DNA of 64,000 bases from a virus. Positions 2,198 to 60,379 of this stretch are shown piece by piece. A program made the translations under genes and the position numbers. How positions within the stretch are numbered: position 1 is the first letter of the stretch; each line of letters opens with the position of its first letter. The stretch is from positions 1 to 64,000 of IMG/VR virus record IMGVR_UViG_3300030044_000016. One strand, 5' to 3'. The notes under the pieces were generated by a model that saw only the letters and a program-made list of their open reading frames with translations, did not search any database and was not told the origin of the DNA.

Positions 2198-2491
2198 ATG
2201 AGAACAACACTAGCGCTATTCCTATTTTTAGTTGGAACTGCTTTTCCCCAGACTGCCCCAAAGTATAATCTTGGTGCTAACTCTTCGGTAAATACAACTA
2301 ACTTCAGTACCAACACGCTCAACTACCTCAGGTCCAATGCATTATCTGGATTCAATGCGCTTGGATGGGTAACCCCTCCCAGCGCTACTAACTCTACCGG
2401 ACTTCCAGGTGCCCTCTCTTATACAAACAACTATCTCTACATATGCGTTGGTACCAACGTGTGGAAGAGGACTATCCTAGGATCTTGGTAA
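2198..2491 (+). CDS. Small tail-fibre-associated protein with apparent signal-like N-terminus, 97 aa
   Basis: The first 18 residues (MRTTLALFLFLVGTAF) look like a cleavable signal peptide. The remainder is Asn/Thr/Ser-rich, and its end, YICVGTNVWKRTILGSW, resembles the short beta motif that often closes phage fibre proteins. TAATG overlap with the long fibre gene implies coupled translation. It could be an exported surface protein or a fibre subunit; the signal peptide is odd for a cytoplasmically assembled virion part. Confidence 0.65.
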   Translation: MRTTLALFLFLVGTAFPQTAPKYNLGANSSVNTTNFSTNTLNYLRSNALSGFNALGWVTPPSATNSTGLPGALSYTNNYLYICVGTNVWKRTILGSW

Positions 2492-5400
2492 TGGCAACAG
2501 GTGATTTTACAGTACAGGAGCTTCAGTCTGATGGTTCATACAAGGAGTTTACATATACTCCCCCCAATCAACCCTTAAGTACGACCAGTTCCCCTACCTT
2601 CGGTGGACTGACTGTTGGAGGGCTTGTTGTTGATTCCTATGGGAACATAGTTCTTCCAAGCGTAGGACTTACAGGCGGTGGTAGCGATACACTCCACGAC
2701 TCGAGCGGACTCCACTATGGATCGCAAGTCGTAGCCATGCAGGGTATTGGAGTTAGTCATTTTTCTAATGACTCTGGTTATCTCACTACTGAATATAACT
2801 ATTTCAATCAACTTCTCAATACAACCAATTCCCCTACATTTGCGGGAGTTTATTTAAGTGGAGGAAGTGAACTTCATGATTCCAGTGGACTAAAGTATGG
2901 TTCAAGCACGGTAGCCATGCAGGGTATTGGAGTTAGTTATTTTTCTAATGACGCTGGCTATCTCACTACTGAATATAACTATTTCAATCAACTTCTCAAT
3001 ACAGGAAGTTCACCGACTTTCGCTGGACTGACTGTCGGAGAGTTTATTATTGATGCTTATGGAAACCTTACTCTTGGGACTACGGGTGGGTTTACACACC
3101 TCAATGCTGATGGATCTGCCTCTTTTGCCAATGGTGCTGCTACTATATCCAATAATGGGATCCTCCATTCTGCGCAAATAACCACAGCATATATAGCTTC
3201 TGCCTCCGGTGCAGCTATAGGAAATGGTGCCGTTATAACTGGAGGACTGTCAATGTCAGGAACTCTAGATCAGACTGGCACTTCTTACTTTGAGGGGATT
3301 ACTTATCTAGGAGGAAGATTAGGTACGGGATCTGGGACTGAGGTTGATAGCAGTGGTAACGTTTCGGCTGTATCTCTCTTTTCCTATGGAAATCTATCTG
3401 TAGGAACAGGTCCGACAAAGGCAGTAATCCATGCATCTGATGGATCTGCCTCCTTTGCTGCTGGGACTGCTACCATATCTGCTGCAGGTCTTGGTACGTT
3501 CTCTGGTATTAGTGTACCTAGTTTTAGCACTGGGACTGTTACCGCGACTAGCCATCTTTATGCCCATGACGCTGGTATTGGTTGGAATGGTACTAGCTAT
3601 AACACAGTTTTAAATAATGATGGTTCTGCCTCTTTTGCTGATGGAGCTACTACTCTAGGCAGCTCTGGGAACGCTTCATTTGGTAGCAACGCTATTCAAT
3701 TTTATGTTGTTAGTGGTGGGGGTGAGGCACTTTTCCATGTCCCTGTCTATGTAGATTCTGGGGTAATACTAGGCACCCACTATTCTAGTTCTATTTCCGG
3801 AGAAGTTTCTGCCGAATTTACTGGAATAATTTATGCCCCATCACTCTATGTTTCACAGTTTTCTTATGTTGGCACAGGGAGTTTTTTTAATGGTACCGAT
3901 TATTCAGGCGAAAATGGCGTTAGCTTGTTCTCTTATCGGGACCTCATTGATGATAGTCCAGGTTACGAGCTCAACTGGCAGGGTGGAAGGCTCATAAGTA
4001 TTACTGGAGGAGATTCAACCGGTACGCCGCAAAACCTATATCTTGACTCTCCATTAATACTCCCTTACTCGCAGCTTAACCTAGATGGCTCTGCCTCTTT
4101 TGGCAATACCGGAGCAACTATCGATTCATCAGGAAATACTGTGGTATCTAGCCTAGCTTTCCCTGAGAGTGATGGAGCGACCCTCTATGACGATGGTGGT
4201 CTGCAATACGGATTTCAGAGTGTAGCTATGGTTGGGATTAATGTTTCCAACTTTGCTAATGACATGGGGTATCTCACTAGCGAGTACAACATTTTTGACC
4301 AGTCTCTCAACACGACCGATTCTCCCAGCTTTGCAGGGCTAACTGTCACAGGCATCTCTACCTTTGGAGGCGGGGCTACTATTGATGCGCTTGGTCACCT
4401 CTCCGCCACTAATTTCTACTCCATGAATCAGGCAGTGGGAACAACCTCTTCTCCCACCTTTGCAGGAGTTTATTTAAACGGAGGAAGTGAGCTACATGAT
4501 TCTAGTGGGTTGAAGTACGGAACTTCAACTATTGCAATGCAGGGAATCGGGCTAAGTCACTTCACAAATGACTCTGGCTATCTCACTACTGAATATAATT
4601 ATTTCAATCAACTTCTGAATACAACCTCTTCCCCTTCATTTGGTGGATTAACTGTAAGTGGAACCACCTCTTTTACTGATGTTGAAGTTCATTCTACATC
4701 AAATGGAGGACATCCCCAAGTTTGGGCCATGAATAGTGGCGGGGAGATCGCTGTAAGTGTCAGCGGTACGCACAGAGCATCATTATCTTTTGATGATTCT
4801 CTCGGGTTATTCAATTACTACAACGCCAGCTCCCTAGCTTGCCAGCAGCTTGCAGATGATGGCAATATCTACATAGGTAACTACTACGGCAGTAAGGTTA
4901 ATATAGACCCTTCCTGCAATATGATTGGGCCTGCTTCGAACTGGGTCTTAAATGCGGACGGGTCGGCTGTGTTTAGTGGTTATGCAGCCACTATAAATGT
5001 TGATGGCTCGGCTTCTTTCGCAGTAGGACAATCGGTTATCGGGAGTGATGGATCAGCAAGCTTCTCCTCAGGGCAGGCAATCATTGACCCGTATGGTAAC
5101 ACGGTAGTCCCTAGTCTCGGGTTTGCGGGAACATCCAACACCCTCTTTGATGACAGCGGGTTGCAGTATGGTTCTCAGAGCGTGGCAATGGTGGGAATGA
5201 ATGTATCCAGCTTCTACAATGATGCGGGGTATTCAACTGGTGGTGGTGACCCATTCGACCAGTCGCTGAATACCACCGACTCCCCTACCTTCGCGAGCCT
5301 TGGAGTCAATGTGGGTGCGATCTCTCTAAATGCAGACGGCAGTGCTGGGTTTGCTTCAGGTGGGGCAGGAGTGGATGGAAACGGCACGGTCTATGCTCAA

Positions 5401-5862
5401 AGCGGGAGCGTGTCCTATGGTGGCCTTGGGTACTCTTTTACCGAAAACACTAATGTTGGATTTGCCACCGATGGAAACAACCTTAGTTTCTATACGGGTT
5501 CCACTTTAGCCTTAAACATCACCGACGACATCAAGCAGGTCAGGGTTCCTGCTGATTATATTTTCTCGTTTTCATCGTGGACGAACAACAACAATGTGGC
5601 TGATACCTTTTTTGGCAGAGCCTACGCTGGAGGACTCTACACCCCTGGAAACTTTATTGTTGGCAGCACCGTCGATGACGGCTCAGGCCTAGCCCTTCAA
5701 GCTCCAAGTGCTTCGTTCGCTGGCGGTGAAGGCGGTTTTGATTCTGGAGGCTCTCTCTATTGCAACAACTCAGTAGTCACAGAAACGATTACCTGCGACA
5801 GCACCATCGAAATAGTTGTGGGTGGCAGCACCTACAAGATTCCCGCACAATTTATATCATAG
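2491..5862 (+). CDS. Long modular tail-fibre protein, about 1123 aa
   Basis: I chose ATG 2491 (MATGDFTVQEL), overlapping the upstream stop, over the earlier in-frame ATG at 2443. The protein is built from repeats. A roughly 60-aa module (LHDSSGLxYGS, VAMQGIGVS, GYLTTEYN, FNQLLNTTxSPTFAG) recurs at least five times, interspersed with NADGSASFA motifs. The composition (Gly/Ser/Thr/Asn) suits a trimeric beta-fibre contacting the host surface. Several modules, including YELNWQGG and LYLDSPLxLP, are shared with the second fibre gene at 8711. No chaperone domain is evident at the C-terminus. Confidence 0.85.
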   Translation: MATGDFTVQELQSDGSYKEFTYTPPNQPLSTTSSPTFGGLTVGGLVVDSYGNIVLPSVGLTGGGSDTLHDSSGLHYGSQVVAMQGIGVSHFSNDSGYLTTEYNYFNQLLNTTNSPTFAGVYLSGGSELHDSSGLKYGSSTVAMQGIGVSYFSNDAGYLTTEYNYFNQLLNTGSSPTFAGLTVGEFIIDAYGNLTLGTTGGFTHLNADGSASFANGAATISNNGILHSAQITTAYIASASGAAIGNGAVITGGLSMSGTLDQTGTSYFEGITYLGGRLGTGSGTEVDSSGNVSAVSLFSYGNLSVGTGPTKAVIHASDGSASFAAGTATISAAGLGTFSGISVPSFSTGTVTATSHLYAHDAGIGWNGTSYNTVLNNDGSASFADGATTLGSSGNASFGSNAIQFYVVSGGGEALFHVPVYVDSGVILGTHYSSSISGEVSAEFTGIIYAPSLYVSQFSYVGTGSFFNGTDYSGENGVSLFSYRDLIDDSPGYELNWQGGRLISITGGDSTGTPQNLYLDSPLILPYSQLNLDGSASFGNTGATIDSSGNTVVSSLAFPESDGATLYDDGGLQYGFQSVAMVGINVSNFANDMGYLTSEYNIFDQSLNTTDSPSFAGLTVTGISTFGGGATIDALGHLSATNFYSMNQAVGTTSSPTFAGVYLNGGSELHDSSGLKYGTSTIAMQGIGLSHFTNDSGYLTTEYNYFNQLLNTTSSPSFGGLTVSGTTSFTDVEVHSTSNGGHPQVWAMNSGGEIAVSVSGTHRASLSFDDSLGLFNYYNASSLACQQLADDGNIYIGNYYGSKVNIDPSCNMIGPASNWVLNADGSAVFSGYAATINVDGSASFAVGQSVIGSDGSASFSSGQAIIDPYGNTVVPSLGFAGTSNTLFDDSGLQYGSQSVAMVGMNVSSFYNDAGYSTGGGDPFDQSLNTTDSPTFASLGVNVGAISLNADGSAGFASGGAGVDGNGTVYAQSGSVSYGGLGYSFTENTNVGFATDGNNLSFYTGSTLALNITDDIKQVRVPADYIFSFSSWTNNNNVADTFFGRAYAGGLYTPGNFIVGSTVDDGSGLALQAPSASFAGGEGGFDSGGSLYCNNSVVTETITCDSTIEIVVGGSTYKIPAQFIS

Positions 5863-6332: not shown

Positions 6333-6373
6333 GGGCCCAGCCTGATACCCCAGGTTGGGTCCTTTTTCTTTTT
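6333..6373 (+). terminator. Rho-independent terminator
   Basis: GGGCCCAGCCTG (6333-6344) pairs with CAGGTTGGGTCC (6351-6362), including GU pairs, with a 6-nt loop and then a T-rich tract. It closes the fibre/Ala-rich gene unit and insulates it from the structured segment that follows. Confidence 0.9.
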
Positions 6374-6389
6374 AGTGTTGACGAGCATT

Positions 6390-6830
6390 AGGAAATGTAA
6401 GAAAGTAGTAGCAACAGAGCCCCCAAAGCTTATTAACAATGCTCAAACCTGGGGGCCGCTCTTTTACATTCTGAAAACTGTGGTTGTGCACTCGCCCGAT
6501 AAGTAGTGCAGCTTTTATCACAGGTGGCTGGGGCTGGTGCTCCGACGACGCTCATACTGTCGTGTCAGGATTTCGATTATCCTACCTGTCACCAATGTAG
6601 CACTTGCGTTCGGAATCATCTCCTTGCTCGCATGTGTGTTTCCGGTGACCGGATGAATTGGTCACTAGCCGTTTTCCTATCTTGGGTTCTCCCTGGATAG
6701 GACCAATTCCTCTTCTGGGAGATCCTGGGGGAGGTCTCAACTCGAATCGTATTGCGTATGCGGTGCTTTCCTATACCTAGGATAGAGTTGGGAGATTTTA
6801 AAGAACTTACAGCGATGACTAGACCTTCGG
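6390..6830 (+). ncRNA. Candidate large structured non-coding RNA, about 440 nt
   Basis: This stretch has no credible ORF but many nested complementary arms. AATGTAA (6394-6400) pairs with TTACATT (6464-6470), enclosing AGAGC/GCTCT and CCCCA/TGGGG. CTGTG (6478-6482)/CACAG (6519-6523) encloses TGCACT/AGTGCA. Further hairpins are ACGAC/GTCGT (6545-6563), AGGAT/ATCCT (6567-6583) and CGGAA/TTCCG (6611-6644). GAATTGGTC (6655-6663) pairs with GACCAATTC (6701-6709) and competes with GTGACC/GGTCAC. CCTATC/GATAGG lies inside. TCTCAACTC (6735-6743) pairs with GAGTTGGGAGA (6785-6795), enclosing TCCTA/TAGGA. It lies between a terminator and tRNA-Thr. It does not look like tmRNA or a group I intron. The family and exact ends are unknown. 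Confidence 0.55.
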
Positions 6831-6887: not shown

Positions 6888-7019
6888 ATGAGTACAGAAC
6901 CAAACCAAGAACCCACAGAAGAAGTAAGTAAAGACCAGTCAGAGTTTGACTTTGAGTTGGGTGAGCGACCAGAAGCTACTGAGAGATGTAGTGGAGAGGT
7001 CTGCGAGAGTTGCCAATAA
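6888..7019 (+). CDS. Small acidic protein, 43 aa
   Basis: ATG 6888 opens a 43-codon frame rich in Glu/Gln/Asp (MSTEPNQEPTEEVSKDQ) and ending in a CSGEVCESC cluster of three cysteines. Its stop is 5 bases before the SET-domain gene start, consistent with an operon. There is no strong Shine-Dalgarno site. It may be a small partner of the SET protein, but it could also be a chance frame. Confidence 0.5.
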   Translation: MSTEPNQEPTEEVSKDQSEFDFELGERPEATERCSGEVCESCQ

Positions 7020-7024
7020 TAGAT

Positions 7025-7429
7025 ATGGACTCCCCTATCATAGAGGATGACAATGCCCCAGATGCGGTAGTTAAGCCGTCCTCTATTGAGGGGTGGGGCT
7101 TATTTGCAGGTCGCAACTTTGCTGTTGGCGAGACTATTATTGATTACAATCTGTTCCAAGATGGTTGGTATAAACTAAAATACACAGATCTTACTGAAGA
7201 GCAGATTAGGAAGAGTTGGTATGTGATGATTGATAATGAGTGGTGCGTCACCTGTGATCGGTGGAGTAAGTTCTCATATATAAATCACTCTAGGAATCCA
7301 AACTGTTTATGGCTCTTGCAAGATAGATTGGTTGTTGCTAGTGTAGATATCCCTGAGGGTGAAGAGTTGTTTATCGACTATCGCCTGGAGCCTCGTCCAA
7401 CTAGGACAGAGTATCCATCATGGGTTTAA
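7025..7429 (+). CDS. SET-domain protein (putative protein-lysine methyltransferase), 134 aa
   Basis: I chose ATG 7025 over an in-frame TTG at 7010. The SET-domain signature is clear. GWGLFAGR (residues 23-30) matches the N-terminal SET-N motif. INHSRNPNC (86-94) is the NHxxxPN S-adenosylmethionine/active-site motif. EELFIDYR (113-120) holds the catalytic Tyr. The protein is compact, essentially a bare SET domain without pre- or post-SET cysteine clusters. SET proteins transfer methyl groups from SAM to lysines; the target here is unknown and could be a host or virion protein. It sits just upstream of tRNA-Thr. Confidence 0.85.
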   Translation: MDSPIIEDDNAPDAVVKPSSIEGWGLFAGRNFAVGETIIDYNLFQDGWYKLKYTDLTEEQIRKSWYVMIDNEWCVTCDRWSKFSYINHSRNPNCLWLLQDRLVVASVDIPEGEELFIDYRLEPRPTRTEYPSWV

Positions 7430-7430
7430 T

Positions 7431-7505
7431 GCTTCCGTAGCTCAGCGTTAGAGCACTCCCTTTGTATGGCAGATGTCGCGGGTTAAAATCCTGCCGGAAG
7501 CTCCA
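7431..7505 (+). tRNA. tRNA-Thr (anticodon TGT)
   Basis: The acceptor stem GCTTCCG/CGGAAGC pairs perfectly. The D-arm contains GCTC...GAGC, the anticodon loop TTTGTAT gives TGT, and the T-arm stem is GCGGG/CCTGC. A CCA end is encoded (7503-7505). The anticodon stem has one C-C mismatch. Codons read: ACA and possibly other ACN. Confidence 0.9.
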
Positions 7506-8710: not shown

Positions 8711-10630
8711 ATGGCTGACGTAATTGAAATTTCAGGAGATATAATCCAGATTGAGTCCCCTGGACCACAGGGGATAGCTGGTGGTAGGGGTCCAACAGGA
8801 CCAAGGGGGCCAACAGGACCACCTGATGGGGATCCAGGACCAACCGGCCCAACTGGTCCTAGTGGATCTGGGGAATCTTACAATCAATCCCTAAATACAA
8901 CCAACAGCGTTGAGTTTTTGTCCATAGACTTGGCTGGTGGAATTGTCCACGTTAATAGGTATGGAGAAATTATCTTTGGTGGTGGAGCCGGCAATATCGA
9001 CCCAACAGGAACTGGATGGTTTTATGCACTCAATGTAGAGAACGCCGCTAATTTTGGTGGAGGTACCAACTTCGACGCCAGTGGAAATCTCACAATAGCT
9101 GGTAGCTCTGGTATCTACAGTAATGGTGCTGTACTGGTAGGGACTAACGGAGAATCAGGGTTTTACACTCAACTTAGCTACGATGGGTCAGCCCTATTTG
9201 CTGGAGGGGACCTTCAAGTCAATACTGATGGATCTGTACATCTCATCTCTAATGGGGTTGGAGACTTCTTTATAGATCTCAACGCTGATGGCACTGCATC
9301 ATTTCTAAATGGGAATGCTATCCTGGATAATGGAGAATCTGGACAGCCCACTCTAACTCTCGGGGGATCTATTCTTACTGCTCCTTGGCCTGGCATCTTC
9401 TATATGCAGACGGATGCCTTGTGGATCGACAATGGCGTCTATGTCCCAGGTGGTGGACTAAACTCAGATGGTTCTGCTCAGTTTGCAGGAGGATCTGTTG
9501 AAATTAGCACTTCTGGAGTTGTTGGGATAGCAGGATTAATCTCCCTTAATCCTGATGGCTCTGCTAGTTTTGCTAACGAAGGGGCTACTATCGATTTATA
9601 CGGTAATACCATCCTTGCTTCCCTTGGCTTCCCTGGGGCTGATGGCGGAGCATCACTCTATGATGACTCTGGCTTGCAGTACGGGAGTCAGTCAGTAGCG
9701 ATGGTTGGTATGAATGTCAGTAGTTTCTATAATGATGCAGGATACTCAACTGGCGGTGGGAATCCCTTCGATCAGTCCTTAAATACTACAGACAGCCCTT
9801 CATTTGCATATGGAATGGTAAGTATTTATTCTAGGTGGGATGGGTACAACAATATTGGAATGATCTCTCTTGGAGATACCGGTGATGGGCTTGGCGGTAT
9901 TGTATTTGATGGCTATTACGGCAGTGCTGTTTTTGCTTGGGGTAACGCTGGGGTTGATTTATATGGAAATGTCAGTGGGGAAAATTTTTCCCTACCTAAC
10001 GGGACTTCTCTTAGGGTTGGTAGCTTTGACAATAGTACTGGTGGAGCTAATGGACTAGGTCTAATCTGCACAGTTGGATATGAACTCAACTGGCAGGGAG
10101 GTCACTTAAAGAATATTCTACAGGGAGATTCTTCTGGTTCACCAGAACCACTATATCTAGACTCCCCATTGGTACTACCAGCAGCTCAGCTCAACCTAGA
10201 TGGATCAGCCAGCTTTTCATCTGGCTACGCTACTATAAACAACGACGGTTCTATTTATCTTTCTAATGGGCAGGCGGAAGTAGATGGTAATGGTAATGCG
10301 TTATTTAGAAGTGCTGGTTTCTTGGGCGGTGGCAGCAATGCCCTCTACGACGATGGTGGACTTCAATACGGTTCTCAGTCCGTGGCAATGGTGGGAATGA
10401 ATGTTTCCAACTTTGCTAATGACATGGGGTATCTGACGACGGAGTACAACATTTTCGACCAGTCGTTGAATACAGGGGATTCGGCGGGGTTTGGAAGCCT
10501 CAGCATTAATGGCGGCGCTGCTACGATCCAATCAGATGGCTCTATTGACGTTGGTGGAGGATCTTCTGGAATTGGAGGTTTGACCTCTGATGGAACACAT
10601 TTATACTGGAAAGGCACTTTACTCGCCTAA
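8711..10630 (+). CDS. Collagen-like modular tail-fibre protein, 639 aa
   Basis: Residues ~15-55 form a Gly-X-Y collagen-like segment (GPTGPRGPTGPP, GPTGPTGPSG), typical of trimeric fibre necks. The remainder repeats the modules of the first fibre gene: NADGSASF, LYDDSGLQYGSQSVAMVGMNVS, FDQSLNTTDSPSF and ELNWQGGHLKNI..GDSSGSPE.LYLDSPL. It ends with GGLTSDGTHLYWKGTLLA, a beta-strand motif common at fibre tips. Probably host-binding; the two fibre genes look like recombining paralogues. A glycosyltransferase follows after two bases. Confidence 0.85.
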   Translation: MADVIEISGDIIQIESPGPQGIAGGRGPTGPRGPTGPPDGDPGPTGPTGPSGSGESYNQSLNTTNSVEFLSIDLAGGIVHVNRYGEIIFGGGAGNIDPTGTGWFYALNVENAANFGGGTNFDASGNLTIAGSSGIYSNGAVLVGTNGESGFYTQLSYDGSALFAGGDLQVNTDGSVHLISNGVGDFFIDLNADGTASFLNGNAILDNGESGQPTLTLGGSILTAPWPGIFYMQTDALWIDNGVYVPGGGLNSDGSAQFAGGSVEISTSGVVGIAGLISLNPDGSASFANEGATIDLYGNTILASLGFPGADGGASLYDDSGLQYGSQSVAMVGMNVSSFYNDAGYSTGGGNPFDQSLNTTDSPSFAYGMVSIYSRWDGYNNIGMISLGDTGDGLGGIVFDGYYGSAVFAWGNAGVDLYGNVSGENFSLPNGTSLRVGSFDNSTGGANGLGLICTVGYELNWQGGHLKNILQGDSSGSPEPLYLDSPLVLPAAQLNLDGSASFSSGYATINNDGSIYLSNGQAEVDGNGNALFRSAGFLGGGSNALYDDGGLQYGSQSVAMVGMNVSNFANDMGYLTTEYNIFDQSLNTGDSAGFGSLSINGGAATIQSDGSIDVGGGSSGIGGLTSDGTHLYWKGTLLA

Positions 10631-27504: not shown

Positions 27505-28934
27505 TGGACATCCCATCCCCCAAAGGAGTTACCCTCCGTGGGTTTGACGATCCAGAGGGGCTGAGGCAGGACATTCTGGACAGGACTCTTGGTGCCTATC
27601 AGGCTAAGTTCCCCATGGAGAATGAAAAGGTTGTTATTAGTGCCAAGGATCTGCACTACGACCAGAAGAAGCCATATGGTGTGCACGACGAAAAGAAAGC
27701 ACTCCTAACAGGAGGTAAGCTATCTGTACCCATTAGTGGGACAATTACTTTGCACGACAAGCTAACCGGTCAGAAGCTTGATGAATTTAAGGGGGTGGTT
27801 TCTAGGGTGCCCTGGATGACCCACAGGGGGACTTTTATCAACGGGGGTAGTGAGTACAGCCTTGTGGCTGGACAACAACGCCTGAAGCCAGGTATCTACG
27901 CTAGGCGCAAAGACAGTGGCGAAATAGAAAGTCACATAAATACAATTAGCGGCACGGGCCAAGGAATGCGACTTTTTATGGAGCCAGATACTGGTGTTTA
28001 TAGAGTCATGATCGGTAAAAGCCGCATTAAGCTATATCCAGTCCTTAAGGGAATGGGTATGGATGATGGGGAGATTATGAAGTATTGGGGTCCACAACTT
28101 TTGGACGCCAATAAGAGCCATGATGACGACAAGTCATTTGGCAAATTCTATGATAAACTCATGGGCCGAAAGGCAACGCCTGGCGCAGACGACAAGCAAA
28201 AAAAGAAAGAGCTCCTCGAAGAGCTTGGCAGAGGTGAGGTTGATCCTGAGGTTACTCAAAGGACGCTTGGCGTCGCTGATAAGAACCTTAGTCCTAGGTT
28301 GATTCTTAGGGCTAGCCAGAAGCTGCTCAACATCAATAAGGGGCTTGAGGAGGAGGATGACCGTGATAGCATGGCCAACAAGAACTTCATGGGCCCAGAG
28401 GATCTCTTTGAAGAAAGGGTTAAGAAGGATGCCGGCCAACTAGCAAGGACACTTCTGCATCGCTCTACTTACAATAGGACATTGAAGGGAATTCGTCCTG
28501 GATACTTTACTCCGCAACTAGATGGATTAATTGTCGGCAATAGCTTGAGCAACCACATCTCTGGGATTAATCCTATGGAGATCTACGACTACCAGAAGAG
28601 AGTTGTGCAGACAGGTGAGGGAGCTATTACTTCAATGGATGCGGTGCCGATGTCCAGTAGGGCAGTGTCCCCATCTCAAGCAATGGTGCTGGATCCTATT
28701 AGATCCTCTGAGTCCAAGAACATTGGTGTCGATCAGCGCTACTCCTCAGTAGCTAAAAAAGGAAGTGATGGAAACATCTACTTCCCAGTAATGAACAAGC
28801 GCACTGGAAAGCCTGAGTACATCAATGCTATCCAGATGAGCCAGTCGGTTGTTGCATTCCCTAGGGGCAATAAGATCCCTGAGCACAATGCTATCCCTGC
28901 TCCTGTTGGTGCAGCGTCGCTCCTAAAGGTATAG
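27504..28934 (+). CDS. RNA polymerase beta subunit, N-terminal part (split gene), 476 aa
   Basis: GTG start overlapping the upstream TAG. Residues ~100-160 (GTFINGGSEYSLVAGQQRLKPG, IYARRKDSGE, INTISGTGQGMRL) correspond to the beta segment around [20 protein letters not shown] in bacteria. Residues ~345-430 (LSNHISGINPMEI..KRRV-like region, SSRAVSPSQAMVLDPI, SSESKNIGVDQRYSS) align with bacterial beta LSQFMDQNNPLSEITHKRR through HYGRVCPIETPEGPNIGLI. The gene stops roughly at E. coli beta residue 620; the rest of beta is in the fusion at 39795. A hairpin (28957-28973) follows, without a good T run. Two beta pieces must assemble with the other products. Weak conservation is typical of phage multisubunit polymerases. 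Confidence 0.85.
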   Translation: MDIPSPKGVTLRGFDDPEGLRQDILDRTLGAYQAKFPMENEKVVISAKDLHYDQKKPYGVHDEKKALLTGGKLSVPISGTITLHDKLTGQKLDEFKGVVSRVPWMTHRGTFINGGSEYSLVAGQQRLKPGIYARRKDSGEIESHINTISGTGQGMRLFMEPDTGVYRVMIGKSRIKLYPVLKGMGMDDGEIMKYWGPQLLDANKSHDDDKSFGKFYDKLMGRKATPGADDKQKKKELLEELGRGEVDPEVTQRTLGVADKNLSPRLILRASQKLLNINKGLEEEDDRDSMANKNFMGPEDLFEERVKKDAGQLARTLLHRSTYNRTLKGIRPGYFTPQLDGLIVGNSLSNHISGINPMEIYDYQKRVVQTGEGAITSMDAVPMSSRAVSPSQAMVLDPIRSSESKNIGVDQRYSSVAKKGSDGNIYFPVMNKRTGKPEYINAIQMSQSVVAFPRGNKIPEHNAIPAPVGAASLLKV

Positions 28935-39438: not shown

Positions 39439-39795
39439 ATGAACAAGTACGCCTCTATTTATTTTGACACGCTTGAGAAGCAATCAGATCTTCAGACTAA
39501 TATACAGGGAGAAGATGCAACCCACTTGATTAAAAGACTTTACGAAGGAAATGTTGATGTAAATAAGATGCTAGATAATGCTAGCCACTCTCATCTCAAT
39601 GTCCCAGGTCTTAGTCCATTAGTGGCAAATGCTCTTAAGCCTGCAGTAATTTCTGGGATTAAGACCAATCAACCCCACTACATGGAGTTGCTGAAGACAA
39701 AGATTCCCCAAGACACTCTAAAGAAGTTTATCGACAAAAACCCTCATGTGTTTGATAGTGTATCTAATGCCCTGCCACCACAACCAATCGCCTAA
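39439..39795 (+). CDS. Virion-type protein with MNKYA tag, 118 aa
   Basis: Begins MNKYASIYFDTLEKQSDLQ, the same opening pattern as proteins at 51213 and 56030. The rest is helical, with a His-containing middle (DNASHSHLNVPGL). It is TAATG-coupled to the RNA-polymerase fusion gene, so the two are probably made together. A packaged polymerase-associated protein is plausible; unproven. Confidence 0.6.
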   Translation: MNKYASIYFDTLEKQSDLQTNIQGEDATHLIKRLYEGNVDVNKMLDNASHSHLNVPGLSPLVANALKPAVISGIKTNQPHYMELLKTKIPQDTLKKFIDKNPHVFDSVSNALPPQPIA

Positions 39796-42700
39796 TGGAT
39801 CTTTTTGAACAGATGTTCCCTGGCCTCCTAAAAGAGGCTGGAGCTTTTGATGCGCACTCTGCAGAGTTTATCCCTGCAATGAGACGGGGCAAGCTGACCT
39901 ATGCCTCCCCCAAGGAGGTAGACTACGAGATCATGTCTCCTAGTCATTTGTATACTGAGGCCTCTAATTTGTCTCCAATGGGGAGTACCATGGCAGGCGC
40001 TAGATTGTTCATGGGGTCGAAGTACGTAAATCAAGCTCTGCCGCTCAAGGATCCAGAGGCTGCGCTAGTCCAGGTATTGGATGATGATACAGGCAAGCCG
40101 CTAGAACAAGTGATTGGATCTAAGGTTGGCTTAGTCAAGTCTCCTGTGCATGGGACTATAAAGAGGGTAGACAAAGAAAATGTACTAATAGCTGGCGCTG
40201 ACGGCAAAGAGCACAACGTAGAACTGAGGAACTTCTATAGCCATAACAGGAAAACTCAAACTACCGATACTCCCTTGGTGAAGGAGGGGGATGTTGTTAA
40301 GCCTGGTCAGTCATTGGCTCACTCTAATTATGTGATGCCGGATGGCACTCTAGCTCTAAGTAAGAACCTCAGGGTAGCGTTCATGCCAGGAAAGGGTGGT
40401 GGTACATTTGAGGATGCCATTACAGTGAGTGAAGGTGCTGCTAAGAAACTTACGTCTAATCACATGATTGGATTTGATGTCGACCATAAGGGGGGTGTTG
40501 TGTCGGACAAGTCGAAGTTTATGCAACTGTTCCCAAACAGGTACACAAAAGATCAATTGGATAAGATCGGAGAGAATGGAATGGCCAGAAAGGGCGTAAC
40601 ATTGCAAACTGGAGATCCAATATTTTTGTCTTTGTCTCCTAGGGTACTTAGGGCTGAGGACCGCGCCAAGGGCAATCTACACAAGATTCTTAAAAAGTCA
40701 TTCTCTGATAAGAGTCAGACCTGGGAAAAGTCGGTTCCTGGTGTGGTGGCAGATGCCGTAGAGACTAGGCATGGTCTATCTGCAAATATTTCTGCTGACT
40801 TCCCACTAAGTCAGGCTGATAAGATTTCTTCTAGGGCTGCGGCAAAAGGCGTAATTGGGTCTATTGTTCCAGATCACAAGATGTTTAGGGATAGTGATGG
40901 GAACCCTATTGATATTTTAATTAACCCAGCGGCCCTAATCGGCAGAAAGAATCCCATGATGGTTTTCGAGGCAATGCTTGGTAAGATAGCCCACAAGACT
41001 GGACAAAAGTATGTAATGCCCTCCTTCTCCACTGATTCATTCCACAAGTTCGTCTCGGGGGAACTAAAGAAGCACGGCGTATCCGATACAGAAGATCTAT
41101 TTGATCCAGAGACTGGCAAAAAAATTCCCAATGTTCTTACTGGTATTCAGGCGTTTTACAAACTAGAGCACACAGCTGATACTAAGTGGAGTGCTATTGA
41201 TGAGGGTGGGGTGGATCAAAATTTTCAGCCCACAAAGCCAGGCGGAACGAGTAGCGCAAAAAGAATCGGAAACCTTGACGTAACTGCCTTACTGTCTCAT
41301 GGCGCAGTAAAGAACTTGTATGATATCCAAAACTATCGTACTGGAGGCGACCCAGATCTTTGGCGTGCAATCCGTATGGGTCACCCACTTCCCGCCCCAA
41401 AGGTCCCATTTGTGTATGATAAGTTTATTAATACGCTTAAGGGGGCTGGTATTAATACAGAGAGGAAGGGATCAAAGATTTTTATCAAAGCGCTAAAAGC
41501 TAAGGATATTGATGAATTGGTTGGACAGAGAGAGGTAAAGAATTCTGAGACTATTGACCCTAGTAGTGGCCAACCCATACCAGGTGGATTAATGGATCAA
41601 TCTCTGCATGGAATTGATGGAAAGAGATGGAGCTATATTAATCTTGGGGAGCCAGTACCAAATCCGATCCTTGAGGAGCCACTTAGGAAGATACTTGGGC
41701 TGACTGAGAGCGAGATGCGCGACATTCTATCCAACAAGGGACAGATCAATGGCAATACTGGGCCCAAAGCGTTGATTGATGCCTTGGGGTCTCTTGATCT
41801 AGACAAGGAGGAGCAAGACCTTAGAAGCAAGATTCGCAATGGATCTAGCACGACTAGGAATAGCGCCGTACAGAAGCTAAATATTATTTCTGGAATCAAG
41901 AAACAGGGTATTGGGAAGGAAGATTTCTTTATGACTAAGGTTCCGGTTTTACCCGCCGCATATCGCCCTATTTCTATGGCTGGGAGGATGATGCTGAGTG
42001 CTGACTCCAATTATCTATACAAAGACCTAATGACAGCCAGGGATCTTCACGAAAAATCAAAACAAGATTTTGGTGATCAAGAGGCTGGCAATGAGAGACT
42101 TGCTGTGTACGACTCGCTTGCTGCTGTTATGGGGCTTGGTGACCCGCTTCATCCCAAGCTTGTGCAGAAGGGAGTTAAAGGGTTTATTCGCCAGCTAGCG
42201 GGGAGTGGAGGACCCAAGACGGGATCTCTCCTGGGGAAGGTTATTGGTCATACAGTGGGGACTGTTGGGAGGGGGGCAATTATCCCGAGCGATGAGCTAG
42301 ATATGGATCAGATCGGGGTCCCAGAAAAGATGGCGTGGAAGATGTATTCTCCGTTTGTCATGAGGCGCTTGGTAAAGCACGGAATGCCATCTAGTCAGGC
42401 AGCTCTGAATGTGGAGAGAAAGACCGATTATGCAAAGAGGTTTTTGTTGGAGGAGATGAAGGCTAGGCCGGTCATGTATAGTCGAGCTCCATCTTTGCAC
42501 CGGTTCAACATAATGGGAGCAGAGCCACAGATTGTGACTGGCGATTCAATTAGGATCAGTCCATTAGTTGTAAAGCCCTTCACTGCGGACTTTGACGGCG
42601 ACGAACAGGTTGGTAAAGTGCTTATTTTAAGGAGTTTGCAAAAAAAATGCACAAATAGTAAAAATCATTTGACACATCCATCACTATTGTGCGGTAGTGA

Positions 42701-44807
42701 AGACATGTTCAAGGATATCACACTACCACATTACAATCCCACCACTCATGAAGTATCAGTTGTTGACCTAGAGGACTTTCCTCGCGGAGAGTTTACGAAT
42801 CGCAACGAGAACGGTAAGAATGGTCCAATAGATTTCTTTTCTGTCCCAGAGGATATAATGGTCTTAGCACTCGACGAAAAGACAAACAAGCCTGTATGGG
42901 CGCAAGTTGCGTTTTATAGCAAGCATTACCAAAGGAAAATAGAGATTGTAAATTTGCTGGCTGGTAGGCAGATCATTACAGACGACGACCCTCGCGCTGT
43001 TTATGGAATGGATCCATCAAGACCAGAAGACGGCCTTATTCGCTGCACTCCAACTGAAGCGCTAAACCGTAAGATTTGTGTACCATATTCCCCCCACGCT
43101 GGAGCTGCTGTGAGCCAGTTGCCAGAAATTTCTGAGATCACAATAACAGATCGAGAGGATTGTATCTTCAAGAAACTCCCACTCACTAGGGAATTAGGGT
43201 ATTTGCTTGGTGCCCTATGTGGTGATGGGTGGTGGGACAAAAAAGATTATGAATATTACCACAAGCGAACAGATATGTTTGGTTCTAGAAATATTAATAT
43301 GGCAGATCTAAAGGGGTATAATGCCTTATCTATAAAGAAAATATTGACAGACTTGTTTTTAAAGTCTGGGCCTCTTTATCATTATTCGATAGAGACGCTC
43401 AAAGCAAACAACCCATCCAGATACGGAGATACCGTCAAGCACACTTTTAACTTCAAGCACAGCGAGTTGTTTGCAGAATTTCTTTCTACTCACTTGGGTG
43501 GCGAGGGGGACGAAAATACCGCTGGTTCTGGCAACAAGCACCTATCTGGGTTTATGTATCAAGCTCCACGGGAGTTCCGAGAGGGACTTCTTTGTGGACT
43601 GGTCGATACTGATGGATCCTGCTCGGTGTCGCACGCAAAGGAAAAGCCACAGCTACTATGTGCTTTTTCTAGCACGTCACTCAGGCTTGTTCGCGATGTT
43701 AAATTTCTTGCATCTACTCTTGGGATTAATTCTACAATCACCTGGTCCAAAACCACTACCGCAGGAAATGATTCGTGGATACTGGCATTTTCCTCTGTTG
43801 ACTGTAAGAGACACAATATTTTTGTGAATCTTGAGTGCCCCTGGAAGAAAGAGGCATTTTTGACCACGCCTGTCAGAGATGACTCCCCTGTGCTTGGTAA
43901 GTACGATACAGTATTTATACCGCATAGTCTTGCGAAGGAGTTTTCGAGGCAACTTGGTAGCCCACAGATTACCTCTGACCTTAAAAAGATTGGTGGGGCT
44001 GCTCTCGAAGAGACTCTTGATAAGAAGGCCGTTTACAGAAATATTTGGGGAGGAATTGCCAGAGGAGCTGTCTCTAGGAATTCCGCCTACAGGGCAATTG
44101 ATCAGATTAGGGAGACCTATCGTCGCGACGGAGCAATCATAGAAATCGCTCTTGAGGTAGCCAATAAGTGCCGTGATTCTGGCAAGCTGGATATGAAGTC
44201 CGCTCAGCAGATTAGGGCTGGAATCGTTCGGGTTGCTCCAGCTGGAACCCCCAACTACAAATTGGTGAAGAATGTGTATAGCGGACTGGACAGGCCAATC
44301 AAGACTGGTAAGTTGCCAGAGTCCACTGCTGATCGCATTATCAAATTCCTGGCCGAAACTGAGCGCCCTCAATGCTACGTGGACACTCCTGAATTCCTGG
44401 AATGGTCTGAGAGGTTCCTAGAGAACAAATCTATCAATTGGTCCCCCGTCGACTCTGTAGAAAAGACTGGAGTGTTAGAAGATGGATACGACCTAACGGT
44501 TCCAGGATATGAGACCTTCATGGCCGCTGATGGAGTTATTCTATCTAACACCATGAATGTACACGTCCCTGTATCTGATGACGCAGTGAAAGAGATTAAA
44601 GACAGGCTCATGCCATCTCAGAACCTTCTCTCCATTAAAGGAAGAGATGCCCACTATACACCATCTCAGGAGTTCGTCCTCGGGTTGTACAACACTACTG
44701 CTGTGGATCATAAGAAACCCAAGACTAAGTTCAAGAGCGCCGAAGATGTTATTGCTGCCTATAGAAGAGGGGACTTAAATATCGACAGTCAAGTTGATAT
44801 TGGGTAA
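39795..44807 (+). CDS. RNA polymerase beta(C-terminal)/beta'(N-terminal) fusion containing an intein, 1670 aa
   Basis: Residues ~58-84 (NLSPMGSTMAGARLFMGSKY..NQALPL) match beta [28 protein letters not shown]. Residues 191-213 (NLRVAFMPG..TFEDAITVSE) match [22 protein letters not shown]. Residues ~449-530 match the beta C-terminus (KLEHTADTKW, KPGGTSSAKRIGNLDVTAL). From ~609 beta' begins: WSYINLGEPVPNPI, VPVLPAAYRP (~716), RAPSLHRFN (~896) and TADFDGD with the Mg-binding Asp triplet at 932-936. An intein (937-1585) interrupts here; the C-extein TMNVHVPVSDDAVKEI continues QMAVHVPL and ends ~85 residues later. Mature product about 1021 aa. The first 14 residues (MDLFEQMFPGLLKE) resemble local virion tags. 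It must join beta-N and beta'-C. Confidence 0.93.
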   Translation: MDLFEQMFPGLLKEAGAFDAHSAEFIPAMRRGKLTYASPKEVDYEIMSPSHLYTEASNLSPMGSTMAGARLFMGSKYVNQALPLKDPEAALVQVLDDDTGKPLEQVIGSKVGLVKSPVHGTIKRVDKENVLIAGADGKEHNVELRNFYSHNRKTQTTDTPLVKEGDVVKPGQSLAHSNYVMPDGTLALSKNLRVAFMPGKGGGTFEDAITVSEGAAKKLTSNHMIGFDVDHKGGVVSDKSKFMQLFPNRYTKDQLDKIGENGMARKGVTLQTGDPIFLSLSPRVLRAEDRAKGNLHKILKKSFSDKSQTWEKSVPGVVADAVETRHGLSANISADFPLSQADKISSRAAAKGVIGSIVPDHKMFRDSDGNPIDILINPAALIGRKNPMMVFEAMLGKIAHKTGQKYVMPSFSTDSFHKFVSGELKKHGVSDTEDLFDPETGKKIPNVLTGIQAFYKLEHTADTKWSAIDEGGVDQNFQPTKPGGTSSAKRIGNLDVTALLSHGAVKNLYDIQNYRTGGDPDLWRAIRMGHPLPAPKVPFVYDKFINTLKGAGINTERKGSKIFIKALKAKDIDELVGQREVKNSETIDPSSGQPIPGGLMDQSLHGIDGKRWSYINLGEPVPNPILEEPLRKILGLTESEMRDILSNKGQINGNTGPKALIDALGSLDLDKEEQDLRSKIRNGSSTTRNSAVQKLNIISGIKKQGIGKEDFFMTKVPVLPAAYRPISMAGRMMLSADSNYLYKDLMTARDLHEKSKQDFGDQEAGNERLAVYDSLAAVMGLGDPLHPKLVQKGVKGFIRQLAGSGGPKTGSLLGKVIGHTVGTVGRGAIIPSDELDMDQIGVPEKMAWKMYSPFVMRRLVKHGMPSSQAALNVERKTDYAKRFLLEEMKARPVMYSRAPSLHRFNIMGAEPQIVTGDSIRISPLVVKPFTADFDGDEQVGKVLILRSLQKKCTNSKNHLTHPSLLCGSEDMFKDITLPHYNPTTHEVSVVDLEDFPRGEFTNRNENGKNGPIDFFSVPEDIMVLALDEKTNKPVWAQVAFYSKHYQRKIEIVNLLAGRQIITDDDPRAVYGMDPSRPEDGLIRCTPTEALNRKICVPYSPHAGAAVSQLPEISEITITDREDCIFKKLPLTRELGYLLGALCGDGWWDKKDYEYYHKRTDMFGSRNINMADLKGYNALSIKKILTDLFLKSGPLYHYSIETLKANNPSRYGDTVKHTFNFKHSELFAEFLSTHLGGEGDENTAGSGNKHLSGFMYQAPREFREGLLCGLVDTDGSCSVSHAKEKPQLLCAFSSTSLRLVRDVKFLASTLGINSTITWSKTTTAGNDSWILAFSSVDCKRHNIFVNLECPWKKEAFLTTPVRDDSPVLGKYDTVFIPHSLAKEFSRQLGSPQITSDLKKIGGAALEETLDKKAVYRNIWGGIARGAVSRNSAYRAIDQIRETYRRDGAIIEIALEVANKCRDSGKLDMKSAQQIRAGIVRVAPAGTPNYKLVKNVYSGLDRPIKTGKLPESTADRIIKFLAETERPQCYVDTPEFLEWSERFLENKSINWSPVDSVEKTGVLEDGYDLTVPGYETFMAADGVILSNTMNVHVPVSDDAVKEIKDRLMPSQNLLSIKGRDAHYTPSQEFVLGLYNTTAVDHKKPKTKFKSAEDVIAAYRRGDLNIDSQVDIG
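42603..44549 (+). other. LAGLIDADG-type intein in the beta' DFDGD motif, 649 aa, non-canonical ends
   Basis: Removing residues 937-1585 restores DFDGD-TMNVHVP, matching canonical DFDGDQMAVHVP, which fixes the boundaries. Endonuclease motifs are LGYLLGALCGDGWW (~1133-1146) and LLCGLVDTDGSC (~1265-1276). Splicing-domain features are divergent: the first residue is Glu, not Cys/Ser/Ala; the block-B region reads GRQIITDDDPRAVYG with Asp where the TxxH His is expected; block F/G reads YDLTVPGYETFMAADGVILSN, with Ser in place of the penultimate His; and the +1 residue is Thr. There are ~90 residues before the first recognisable splicing-fold segment. Whether it splices is unknown. Confidence 0.85.
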
Positions 44808-48489: not shown

Positions 48490-50850
48490 ATGGCCTCGAC
48501 TACTGTTGCACGACTAATTTTTGACTCTATTGTTCCCGAGAAGTATAGGGCTGATCTACCCCCCGATCAGCCCATCGGGAGCAAAGAGGTCAAAGATATC
48601 CTTCAGCAAGTAGCTGAGCAGGATCCTGATAAGTATCGGGACATTTCTTTCAAGCTCTTGCGCCTTGGGTCAAAGGGTGCGGTTGAGACTGGCAGCTCGT
48701 TCTCTATGAACGACCTTGCATCCCCCATCGACAAAGACAAGTTGATGGATGAGGTGTCCCAGAAGGAGCGTGGTATCTTTGGAGACAAAGGTCTGGATCA
48801 GGACAAAAGAGAGCAAGCCCTCGTAAAGCTCTACGATCACTACTCCAACAAGATGCCAGGGATGATCTTTGATGCATCTATGGCAAAGGGATCAAACCTT
48901 GCTAGGATGGTTGCATCAGGTGCTCGTGGTAATAAAGCCCAGCTCAATAGTAATATTGGATCCGATTTCTTGGTGGTTGATCAAAACAACAAGCCAGTAC
49001 CTATTGGTATTAAGAATTCCTACACAGAGGGATTGAACCCTGCTGAATACTTTGCTGCGTCATATGGAACTCGTGCTGGCCTAATATCAACGAAATTCTC
49101 AACAATGCATTCAGGATTTTTGAGTAAACAACTCAATTCTTCAATGTTAGATCTTATAGTGACGCAGCATGATTGCGGCACCAAGACTGGGATTCCAGTA
49201 GATATAGATGACGGTGATAACATAGGGTCAGTACTAGCCAAAGATACGTCTGGGCATAAGGCTGGTACCTTACTAACTTCAAAGATTATTGGTGACATAA
49301 AAAAATCGGGTAAGGATAGAATTGTTGTAAGATCTACCTTGACCTGTGAGTCACCTAATGGAATATGCGCAAAGTGTGCTGGGACAAGAGAGAGAGGTGG
49401 GTTCCCTGCCCTTGGAGAAGCAGTTGGGCTGTCTGCTGGATCTTCTGCATCGGAGCCTTTAAGCCAAATGCAACTATCTAAAAAGCACTGTTTATCAAAA
49501 GGAACATTGGTTAGGATGGCAGATTGGACAACAAAAGAAATACAAGACGTTCGGACTGGGGATTTTGTCCTTGGATCTGATATTAATGGCAATACATTCC
49601 CATCTGAGGTGCTAAATGTTTTTGATAATGGGAATAGAGTGTGCCAGCGGTACACGTTCAGCATAAACAATCTCGGAAGGACAAGTGTTGTTTGTACGGC
49701 TGACCACAAGATTCTATCTCGTTGGTACAAAAGTATGTGTGCTGGGGATGACCTAAATTGGACAAATCAAGTTTTGCCTATTGGTACTAAGACCAATAAG
49801 TTTTATGGAGTATTACCAATGGGATTTACTTCTGTCGGATTGAGAGATGAACCATTTGATTGTGTGGTAGATTGCAGAAAGCTCAGGCGCGTTGGCATTG
49901 AGGAGATGGGTAGTGTACCTACATTTGATATAGAAGTGGGTCACCCAGATCACCTATTTGTTCTTGCAAATGGACTTGTTGTTTCTAATTCAGCAGGCGT
50001 TGCCAACTCGTCCAAAGCTACAGGATTCAAGGCTATCAATGCTTTGTTTCAAGTCCCAGACACTTTCCCAGACAAAGCCTCTCTGTCGGAACACGATGGA
50101 CAGGTTGACAAGATCGAAACGATGCCACAGGGTGGGTTCAATGTATCTATTGGTGGGCACAAGCACTATGTATCTCCAGACCACCAGGTTCTGGTAAAGC
50201 ATGGTGATAAGTTAGAGGCTGGGGACAGAATTTCTACCGGTACAATTAATCCATCTGATGTTGTTCGACTGAAGGGGATCGGAGCGGGACGTTTAAATCT
50301 CTTAAAGCAGGTACAAGACACTTTCAGCGAGAGTGGAATTCCTATGCTCAGAAGGAATGCTGAGGTGTTGGTTCGTGGCATTGTAGATCACGTCAGGATC
50401 AACGACTCTGACGAGACAAACTCCTATCTGCCCGATGAGACAGTTGAGTACAGTGCCTTCAGCAAGGACTACAAGCCCCACAGGGATTCTGTTGTCATGC
50501 ACCCAACCAAAGCACTCAATCACTATCTAGAGGCTCCTGTGATGCACTACAGCATCGGTACAAGGATTACTCCTAGTGTTGCCAAGAATCTTGGAGACAT
50601 GGGTGAGGATCAGGTTCTAGTTAGCCATCACAAGCCAGCCTTTGAGCCTCACATGGTTCGACTGATGGAAAACCCATCCCACGACAAGGATTGGATGTCC
50701 CAGATGGGTACGTCCTATGTGCAGAAGAATCTCAAGAAGAACGTCATCAGTGGCGATGTCTACTCAGACATCCACGGGACAAACCCAATCCCTGCCCTCG
50801 CGTACGGGAAAGAGTTTGGAAAGCCACCCAAAGGTACAGTAGGGTACTAA
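48490..50850 (+). CDS. RNA polymerase beta' subunit, C-terminal part, with mini-intein, 786 aa
   Basis: TTVARLIFDSIVP (4-16) matches beta' TTVGRAILWMIVP. SGARGNKAQ (~143-151) and EGLNPAEYFAASYGTRAGL (~181-199) match the bridge-helix region. All four zinc-site cysteines are kept (Cys229; Cys286, Cys293, Cys296 in CESPNGICAKC). GEAVGLSAGSSASEPLSQMQ aligns with [20 protein letters not shown]. The sequence then reaches LSKKH, whose His aligns with trigger-loop His936 of E. coli. An intein (334-500) follows, then SAGVANSSK and the C-terminal jaw/clamp part (DVVRLKGIGAGRLNLL, AEVLVRGIVDHV). Mature product about 619 aa. With the fusion protein it reconstitutes beta'. Confidence 0.92.
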   Translation: MASTTVARLIFDSIVPEKYRADLPPDQPIGSKEVKDILQQVAEQDPDKYRDISFKLLRLGSKGAVETGSSFSMNDLASPIDKDKLMDEVSQKERGIFGDKGLDQDKREQALVKLYDHYSNKMPGMIFDASMAKGSNLARMVASGARGNKAQLNSNIGSDFLVVDQNNKPVPIGIKNSYTEGLNPAEYFAASYGTRAGLISTKFSTMHSGFLSKQLNSSMLDLIVTQHDCGTKTGIPVDIDDGDNIGSVLAKDTSGHKAGTLLTSKIIGDIKKSGKDRIVVRSTLTCESPNGICAKCAGTRERGGFPALGEAVGLSAGSSASEPLSQMQLSKKHCLSKGTLVRMADWTTKEIQDVRTGDFVLGSDINGNTFPSEVLNVFDNGNRVCQRYTFSINNLGRTSVVCTADHKILSRWYKSMCAGDDLNWTNQVLPIGTKTNKFYGVLPMGFTSVGLRDEPFDCVVDCRKLRRVGIEEMGSVPTFDIEVGHPDHLFVLANGLVVSNSAGVANSSKATGFKAINALFQVPDTFPDKASLSEHDGQVDKIETMPQGGFNVSIGGHKHYVSPDHQVLVKHGDKLEAGDRISTGTINPSDVVRLKGIGAGRLNLLKQVQDTFSESGIPMLRRNAEVLVRGIVDHVRINDSDETNSYLPDETVEYSAFSKDYKPHRDSVVMHPTKALNHYLEAPVMHYSIGTRITPSVAKNLGDMGEDQVLVSHHKPAFEPHMVRLMENPSHDKDWMSQMGTSYVQKNLKKNVISGDVYSDIHGTNPIPALAYGKEFGKPPKGTVGY
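49489..49989 (+). other. Mini-intein in the beta' trigger loop, 167 aa
   Basis: Residues 334-500. Block A begins with Cys1 (CLSKGTLVRMADW, then VRTGDFVLG), block B is VVCTADHKILSR with a proper TxxH, and blocks F/G are FDIEVGHPDHLFVLANGLVVSN; the +1 residue is Ser. No LAGLIDADG or HNH motif, so it is an endonuclease-free mini-intein. The penultimate residue is Ser instead of His, as in the other intein. Excision joins LSKKH to SAGVANSS, restoring the trigger-loop alignment. Confidence 0.92.
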
Positions 50851-59286: not shown

Positions 59287-59472
59287 CTAGACATTTGCAG
59301 AGCTAGGTTGGTTGACACTTCGACGAGCATTGCGCGCCGAGGCCGAAGCCTTGGCGTGACTGATATGCTCTCCATGTCCTTTAACCGGCTGTCCACCGGC
59401 AAATTGAAGAATGTTTTTCGCGGCATTCTGATCTCTGTCCAAATGCTCGCCGCAGTTTTCGCATATAAATAT
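59287..59472 (-). pseudogene. tnpB: TnpB C-terminal fragment (IS200/IS605 or homing-type relic)
   Basis: Minus-strand translation reads FICENCGEHLDRDQNAAKNIL, the hallmark of the TnpB C-terminus: second CxxCG half of the zinc finger and the RuvC-III Asp (DRDxNAAxNIL). It continues with ~45 residues to a stop at 59287. Everything upstream (RuvC-I, RuvC-II, first zinc half) is absent; the frame upstream of 59472 runs into the next phage gene. It is a decayed remnant and cannot be an active nuclease. A retained omegaRNA-like sequence follows. Confidence 0.85.
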
Positions 59473-59482
59473 CCGAATTAGT

Positions 59483-60379
59483 ATGAGCATAAAGATGTAC
59501 TCTCGGGACTTTAGTTCCGACCCCAATTATACACCAGCATGGAGGGCGCAGCAGGCGCTAGAGTATCGTCGTGCTTACCAAGAGGCTCAGCAGCGTGGGG
59601 AGCAAAATCCATCTGTAATACCACTATCGGAAGACGACAAGTATGTCATAGATTTTTATTCACTGCTTGTACATGGTGCGTGTCACTACCCAGAGGTCAG
59701 GTACGCATATTCCTGTTTTTGTGGCAATGTTAACAATGGGCTTGGGACTACAATACAGGCTATGTTTCTTGGCGGTAAAAATATAGAAGACATAGCAAAA
59801 AGCTTTAGGACTAAACGAAAGAATATTGATTGCTACCTGAAGCTATTTTTTGATGTAGAAGAGTATTTGGATTGCGATACACTTATTTACTCCCTTATTT
59901 CTCCATACAATAAGTCTGAGCAGCTTACTGAAGATGTTGCAGCTACTTGTCTTTGGTTGGGACTTTCGTATGCCTTTGGGTGGCAGATTTCAAGGAACCT
60001 GCTACAGAGGAGAATGAATGTGGCTACGGATGTTTCAAAGAAGATATCTGAATCAATGAGGCAGTCTCTTGAAATGCAGGCTAGTGAGTTTGTACTTGGT
60101 GCAAGAATGACTATGAAGGCGAGGCCTTGTGACTTTGAGCGGCACATCTCTCTCACCAATGCCATGAGTATTGCTGAACAAAACAAAACAGCAGAGGGTG
60201 CTATCGCAAATGGGGATTACTTCAGAAAAGCTCTTTGGGGTGGGATCAAGGAAGTGTCTTCTAGTCTTGACTATAATGATCCAGTGAGGAAAATGATTGG
60301 AGATAAAGAGAGGGAGTTGTCATTAAAGGACAAGCAGGAAGTTAAACAAATTGAATATTCTGCTCCACAAGCCCTATAA
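59483..60379 (+). CDS. Hypothetical protein with possible HTH, 298 aa
   Basis: ATG 59483 begins exactly where the TnpB relic ends; a second ATG is at 59495. Residues ~100-125 (GKNIEDIAKSFRTKRKNIDCYLKLFF) have HTH-like spacing. Long helical regions follow, including LEMQASEFVLGARMTMKARP. Could be a DNA-binding virion or packaging factor; not recognised. Confidence 0.6.
   Translation: MSIKMYSRDFSSDPNYTPAWRAQQALEYRRAYQEAQQRGEQNPSVIPLSEDDKYVIDFYSLLVHGACHYPEVRYAYSCFCGNVNNGLGTTIQAMFLGGKNIEDIAKSFRTKRKNIDCYLKLFFDVEEYLDCDTLIYSLISPYNKSEQLTEDVAATCLWLGLSYAFGWQISRNLLQRRMNVATDVSKKISESMRQSLEMQASEFVLGARMTMKARPCDFERHISLTNAMSIAEQNKTAEGAIANGDYFRKALWGGIKEVSSSLDYNDPVRKMIGDKERELSLKDKQEVKQIEYSAPQAL

Follow-up and report, generated by a model that had tools for sequence, protein, structure and literature searches.

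The question raised by this locus is what lies at positions 6390–6830 of the window (the whole 64,000-nt stretch of viral DNA that was analysed), for which the earlier note had proposed one large, ornate RNA of about 440 nt with a conformational switch. Analysis of this region indicates a different organization: it is a structured, non-coding cluster of small RNAs and not one RNA of about 440 nt (Table 1).

Table 1. Features found in and around the RNA cluster, with positions in the window; E-values refer to the whole record.
Feature	Position	Strand	Evidence or remark
Intrinsic terminator (stem-loop and T-run)	6333..6362	+	12 pairs, 8 GC, T-tail
abiF RNA (RF03085)	6420..6456	+	43.4 bits, cut-off 37, E = 4.6e-8
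Hairpin without family	6478..6523	+	MFE structure; 3′ side competes with the tRNA-like acceptor stem
tRNA-Met(CAU)-like element, encoded CCA	6519..6594	+	ARAGORN
Hairpin without family	6600..6637	+	Folding
Mutually exclusive pairings GGTGACC/GGTCACT vs GAATTGGTC/GACCAATTC	6644..6709	+	Folding
Hairpin without family CCTATC...GATAGG	6675..6702	+	Pair probability 0.99 (6676–6701), very stable
11-bp hairpin without family, directly 5′ of the DUF3800-IX element	6709..6734	+	Folding
DUF3800-IX-like RNA (RF02968)	6733..6799	+	34.8 bits, cut-off 36.8, E = 5.4e-7
SET-domain gene	7010–7429	+	E = 4.4e-14; directly 5′ of tRNA-Thr
tRNA-Thr(TGT)	7431..7505	+	3′ of the SET gene

The region had been described as lacking a credible coding frame, and this was confirmed: its open reading frames gave no PHROG match below E = 0.4, and the protein-coding reading was dropped for that reason. 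The strong terminator that bounds the RNA locus on its 5′ side is present as well and closes an upstream gene of 86 aa. The structured character of the locus was borne out by folding, since the whole region was more stable than its shuffled versions (z = −2.34, with 2 of 100 shuffles equally stable); for the sub-regions 6595–6720 and 6700–6810, z was −2.95 and −2.88, respectively. The proximity to tRNAs also held, with the tRNA-Thr on one side and a tRNA-like element within the region itself. A search with Infernal against all Rfam families, which the earlier note had suggested as a check, placed an abiF RNA above the curated cut-off and a DUF3800-IX RNA 2 bits below it. No match to GOLLD or ROOL was obtained, in line with the reluctance of the note to assign the RNA to either, and both identities were dropped. 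The hairpins without family listed in Table 1 had no match in the same scan. The two elements that were recognized match Rfam families whose bacterial members go with toxin genes or putative defence genes. Two large proteins with many NADGSASF-type repeats (window positions 2443–5862 and 8711–10,630) flank the cluster, and the second of them has a collagen-like start. A relative of the SET protein with 67% identity was found in another locus (L002), which does not have the RNA cluster.

The abiF RNA has a fully paired 6-bp outer stem (CCCCCA/TGGGGG), AGC/GCT inner pairs and all of the conserved loop and junction letters AAC-A-ATGCTCAAA. It contains a single abiF motif. Its membership in the family is indicated by the covariance model score and by the outer stem, which is kept by covariation family-wide in phages. 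No Abi_2 (PF07751) gene was found next to this RNA or elsewhere in the 103,653-base record. The window locus has neither an adjacent AbiF gene nor an adjacent DUF3800 gene, so that both RNAs are orphan; a complete type III toxin–antitoxin module is not present here, as the toxin gene is missing (neither Abi_2 nor DUF3800).

The element at the other end of the cluster consists of a 9-bp outer stem and two inner hairpins forming a three-way junction, with CGAA, GTAT loop and TAG motifs and a TTTT tail. The junction, motifs and tail are the same as those of DUF3800-IX RNAs (RF02968), while the window copy has small insertions in the first hairpin and stands without a DUF3800 gene. Its score does not reach the Rfam cut-off despite the low E-value, and it is probably a divergent relative of RF02968 rather than a confirmed member. 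Its nearest relative among the fetched loci (L198; 57.5 bits) has the same three-way junction. The outer stem covaries: in 13 copies including that of the window, 107 of 143 cells were paired, whereas none of 1000 shuffles gave more than 93, and the observed count was lowered by the 3′ arm of L198 being set at a wrong TAG. Ten viral DUF3800-IX copies scored above the Rfam cut-off. The DUF3800 gene is absent from this record and from 11 of the 13 viral records that contain a copy or a candidate. DUF3800-IX RNAs are also situated near tRNAs in a few cases; the DUF3800-IX-like candidate in L128 is flanked by tRNA-Ala and tRNA-Ser, from which it is separated by spacers about ten bases long. When 46 viral abiF loci were surveyed for other antitoxin-type RNAs, the matches were limited to abiF, tRNA and tmRNA and to cis-regulatory elements of known kinds, among them manA, wcaG and glutamine riboswitches; the pairing of abiF and DUF3800-IX RNAs is therefore so far known only in this window.

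Between these two RNAs, ARAGORN called a tRNA-Met(CAU) with a canonical T-arm (AGGAT TTCGATT ATCCT), a CTCATAC anticodon loop and an encoded CCA. The sequence has a C1-C72 mismatch and an abnormal D-arm, and we term it tRNA-like because the Rfam tRNA model reports nothing even at E ≤ 10. As a conjecture, it could supply a tRNA or answer a tRNA-cutting defence.

To compare the window copy with other abiF RNAs, the conserved-core pattern AAGCN5AACRATGCTCAAA was used. It was found in at least 119 viral stretches, 98 of which, among the matches listed, have a complementary stem, and in 120 stretches of bacterial and archaeal genomes; since the viral set was chosen by this core, the core letters are no independent evidence. 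The gene downstream of the RNA was compared for loci with at least 900 nt of downstream sequence. An AbiF gene was located directly after the RNA in 42 of 67 cellular loci versus 1 of 80 viral loci, and no Abi_2 gene was found beside 79 of the 80 viral RNAs (all among the matches listed). Nearly all viral abiF RNAs sampled are thus without AbiF, a statement to be read with the fact that viral records may be fragments. The AbiF protein group of the cellular loci corresponds to Abi_2 and matches the solved structure of PbAbiF (PDB 8vz6) at 613 bits. The home-made AbiF profile was built mostly from Bacteroidota loci and could miss a very divergent AbiF; a Pfam search served as an independent check and detected Abi_2 in none of 50 other viral records that carry an abiF RNA and were searched in full. 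Prophage copies and divergent toxins are candidates for the 25 of 67 cellular loci without a following AbiF. The outer stem of the viral RNAs is maintained by covariation, with CG, GC, TA and AT pairs all in use: its six positions pair in 59–73 of 84 unique viral sequences (among the matches listed), compared with shuffled means of 38–56. The weakest of them is position 1 (59 paired versus 48 shuffled).

Among isolated phages, five phages of Synechococcus and Mycobacterium carry an abiF RNA above the cut-off, and Arthrobacter phage Mimi has one below it (33.0 bits). No AbiF was annotated within 3 kb of these RNAs. A cited title credits a region of Lactococcus phage sk1 with protecting phage 712 against AbiF. 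The search for an abiF RNA in sk1 was negative, and an explanation of this protection through such an RNA was dropped. A second tRNA, missing from phage 712, is located at positions 27,645–27,717 of the sk1 sequence (L351).

The viral abiF RNAs are closely linked to tRNAs. A tRNA was found within 600 nt of the RNA in 54 of the 98 viral loci among the matches listed, whereas 18 would be expected if points were placed at random in these loci; none of 87 cellular abiF RNAs had a tRNA so close. In 37 of the 98 (again among the matches listed), the hairpin nearly touches the tRNA, which often starts 4–5 nt after it. This statistic is weakened by relatedness, as the 98 loci form only 33 single-linkage clusters by shared proteins; per cluster, a tRNA lies within 600 nt in 12 of 33 and in near-contact in 3 of 33 (among the matches listed). 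In the isolated phages, the abiF RNAs are mostly inside tRNA arrays. The RNA precedes the next tRNA by about 4–5 nt in Synechococcus phages S-SZBM1, S-CREM1 and S-SRM01, lies 4 nt from tRNA-Lys in Mycobacterium phage Douge and 270 nt from a tRNA in Mycobacterium phage Redno2, and stands between tRNA-Tyr and tRNA-Lys in the phage Mimi. The arrangement in the window is looser than in many viral loci: the abiF RNA and the tRNA-like element are 62 nt apart and have no contact. In six loci (L034, L051, L060, L062, L078 and L089), the abiF hairpin is fused 4–5 nt upstream of an unusual mini tRNA-like element of about 68 nt that lacks CCA and has a D-stem of 3 bp. Matches to tmRNA-type Rfam families (cyano_tmRNA and permuted tmRNA) were also observed in viral contigs carrying abiF RNA (L071, 3937–4152; L046, 2919–2989).

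These characteristics allow us to propose, with some confidence, that the locus is a phage-borne cluster of orphan antitoxin-type RNAs, which probably act as decoys for AbiF-type systems of the host and perhaps for those of the DUF3800 type. We infer this function by analogy; a decoy action is suggested because each RNA stands without its partner gene. AbiF is a toxin of the HEPN family that is toxic in E. coli and C. difficile, and abiF RNA neutralises it by binding to it directly, in cis as well as in trans, and needs its stem to do so (PMC12373285). Single-stranded bulge letters of the Prevotella RNA inhibit the RNase (reviewed in PMC12737573). In the proposed scheme, the cluster would be transcribed by the phage during infection and the abiF hairpin would be released, plausibly by tRNA processing, many phages having it beside tRNAs. 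The released RNA would bind the HEPN ribonuclease of a putatively AbiF-bearing host in place of the host antitoxin; the bound AbiF would stay inactive and abortive infection would fail. The DUF3800-IX-like RNA might do likewise to a putative DUF3800-type system, with less support. Its decoy role is the weaker one because the DUF3800 protein has a predicted RNase H fold and a link to putative ncRNAs (PMC10910872), and the antitoxin role of DUF3800-associated RNAs is itself putative. The CAU tRNA-like element and the hairpins without family could be further counter-defence or tRNA-supply elements, again with less support.

A comparison with known systems shows both likeness and difference. The bacterial abiF RNAs, such as RCd22 of the C. 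difficile phage phi027 (PMC12373285) and AbiFr of PbAbiF (PDB 8VZ6, PMC12737573), have the same stem, loop and junction letters. In contrast to them, the window copy is an orphan in a phage and is located beside a tRNA-like element and another RNA family, with a single motif where RCd22 has two. The phage PhiTE escapes ToxN, the type III toxin of the ToxIN system, by means of pseudo-ToxI RNA (PMC3475682), which is likewise a phage antitoxin mimic without a toxin; for the window, we infer the mechanism, and the RNA families and toxin types are different, with two families per cluster and no repeats. Phage tRNAs that defeat tRNA-cutting defences (PMC11555353) are another case of phage tRNA loci acting against host immunity, and the window also has a tRNA-like element; those loci supply tRNA, whereas neither the abiF nor the DUF3800-IX element is a tRNA. 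Another known case is the abiF sRNA of Synechococcus phage S-CREM1, located in a phage tRNA array with no AbiF annotated nearby (PMC9964418). In the accessible part of that paper, the sRNA is named from Rfam and regulation of host metabolism is proposed for it, rather than a role as an orphan antitoxin against AbiF. The abiF family, the principle of antitoxin mimicry and the abiF sRNA annotation in S-CREM1 (PMC9964418) are already known, while the pairing of two such RNA families and the general orphan, tRNA-linked pattern of viral abiF RNAs appear to be new. In the literature searched, which was mostly open-access, neither phage abiF RNAs as orphan antitoxins nor their contrast with bacteria was found.

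A wider form of this proposal is more doubtful, although it deserves mention. Phage tRNA loci might double as RNA counter-defence arrays, in which orphan antitoxin mimics, each directed against a different host RNA–protein defence, would be released with the tRNAs. The abiF and DUF3800-IX RNAs would be two of them here, and the hairpins at 6600–6734 would mimic antitoxins of undescribed systems.

It could also be assumed that the RNAs are relics, left from toxin–antitoxin or defence modules after the loss of the protein genes and now functionless. In favour of this, the protein gene that usually accompanies each family is missing here, the score of the DUF3800-IX copy is a little low and the tRNA-like element has a degenerate appearance. 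However, relics would decay, while the stem and the invariant letters are intact and covary over many unrelated phages without the gene; moreover, with two orphan families next to each other, the partner genes would have to have been lost twice, independently. We consider this origin unlikely. Somewhat more improbable is a role within the phage itself, in gene control or the processing of RNA, instead of one related to host defence, with the RNAs as terminators, processing signals or ligands of phage proteins. A U-run follows 25 of the 98 viral abiF hairpins (among the matches listed), which makes termination possible; the C. difficile RNA also attenuates its gene (PMC12373285), and the frequent closeness to tRNAs could reflect processing. 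But conserved loop letters are not required of a hairpin that serves in termination or processing, and the window copy retains the bacterial core together with the stem.

The single large RNA with a switch is very improbable, even though the region beats its shuffles and contains many arms. Both of its ends are explained by compact known RNAs that fold independently: when all 441 nt were folded together, the ensemble gave pair probabilities of about 1.0 for the abiF outer stem and 0.99 for the DUF3800-IX outer stem. The tRNA acceptor stem was not formed by the energy model alone. The competing pairings that had been taken for a switch can both be drawn and are mutually exclusive, but in the full-region ensemble the probability of either is at most 0.01. 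One or the other turns up when shorter pieces are folded alone, which leaves the switch doubtful at best, and the two can also be written as a pseudoknot. The large RNA and its switch were dropped on these ensemble probabilities and the two independent family matches. No relative of the whole was found either: BLASTN against phage isolates gave none, nhmmer with each segment against 2.8 Mb of loci gave nothing beyond abiF loci and, for the DUF3800-IX end, L198, neighbour-protein searches led to a few distant loci without a relative of the cluster, and a search with the RNAP protein led to none. Finally, the 103,653-base record may be a fragment and a toxin elsewhere in the genome is conceivable, but it is hardly credible that matching toxins outside the record make the RNAs ordinary antitoxins of the phage's own modules, as in bacterial loci the AbiF frame of about 300 codons begins right after the RNA, where the window has the tRNA-like sequence, the second RNA and the SET gene.

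AbiF has been proposed as the ancestor of Cas13 (PMC12737573). If phages do carry decoys of the kind proposed here, AbiF would be a real anti-phage pressure across many hosts, including Synechococcus, Mycobacterium and others. DUF3800 systems would likewise be pointed to as defence. The spacers of tRNA arrays, which are mostly ignored, would then be worth searching for RNA inhibitors and for the defences that these answer.

As for the phage itself, the record encodes multi-subunit RNA polymerase proteins, for which the best isolate match was Salmonella phage Arash with 28% identity. The corresponding PHROG matches lie on the + strand of the window at positions 39,795–44,807 and 48,490–50,850; these are large proteins to which those of isolates are only distantly related. 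In addition, an ORF of 79 aa on the − strand (positions 59,287–59,526 of the window) matches the Cas12f1-like TNB (TnpB) domain (E = 5e-7) and looks like a TnpB-type fragment.
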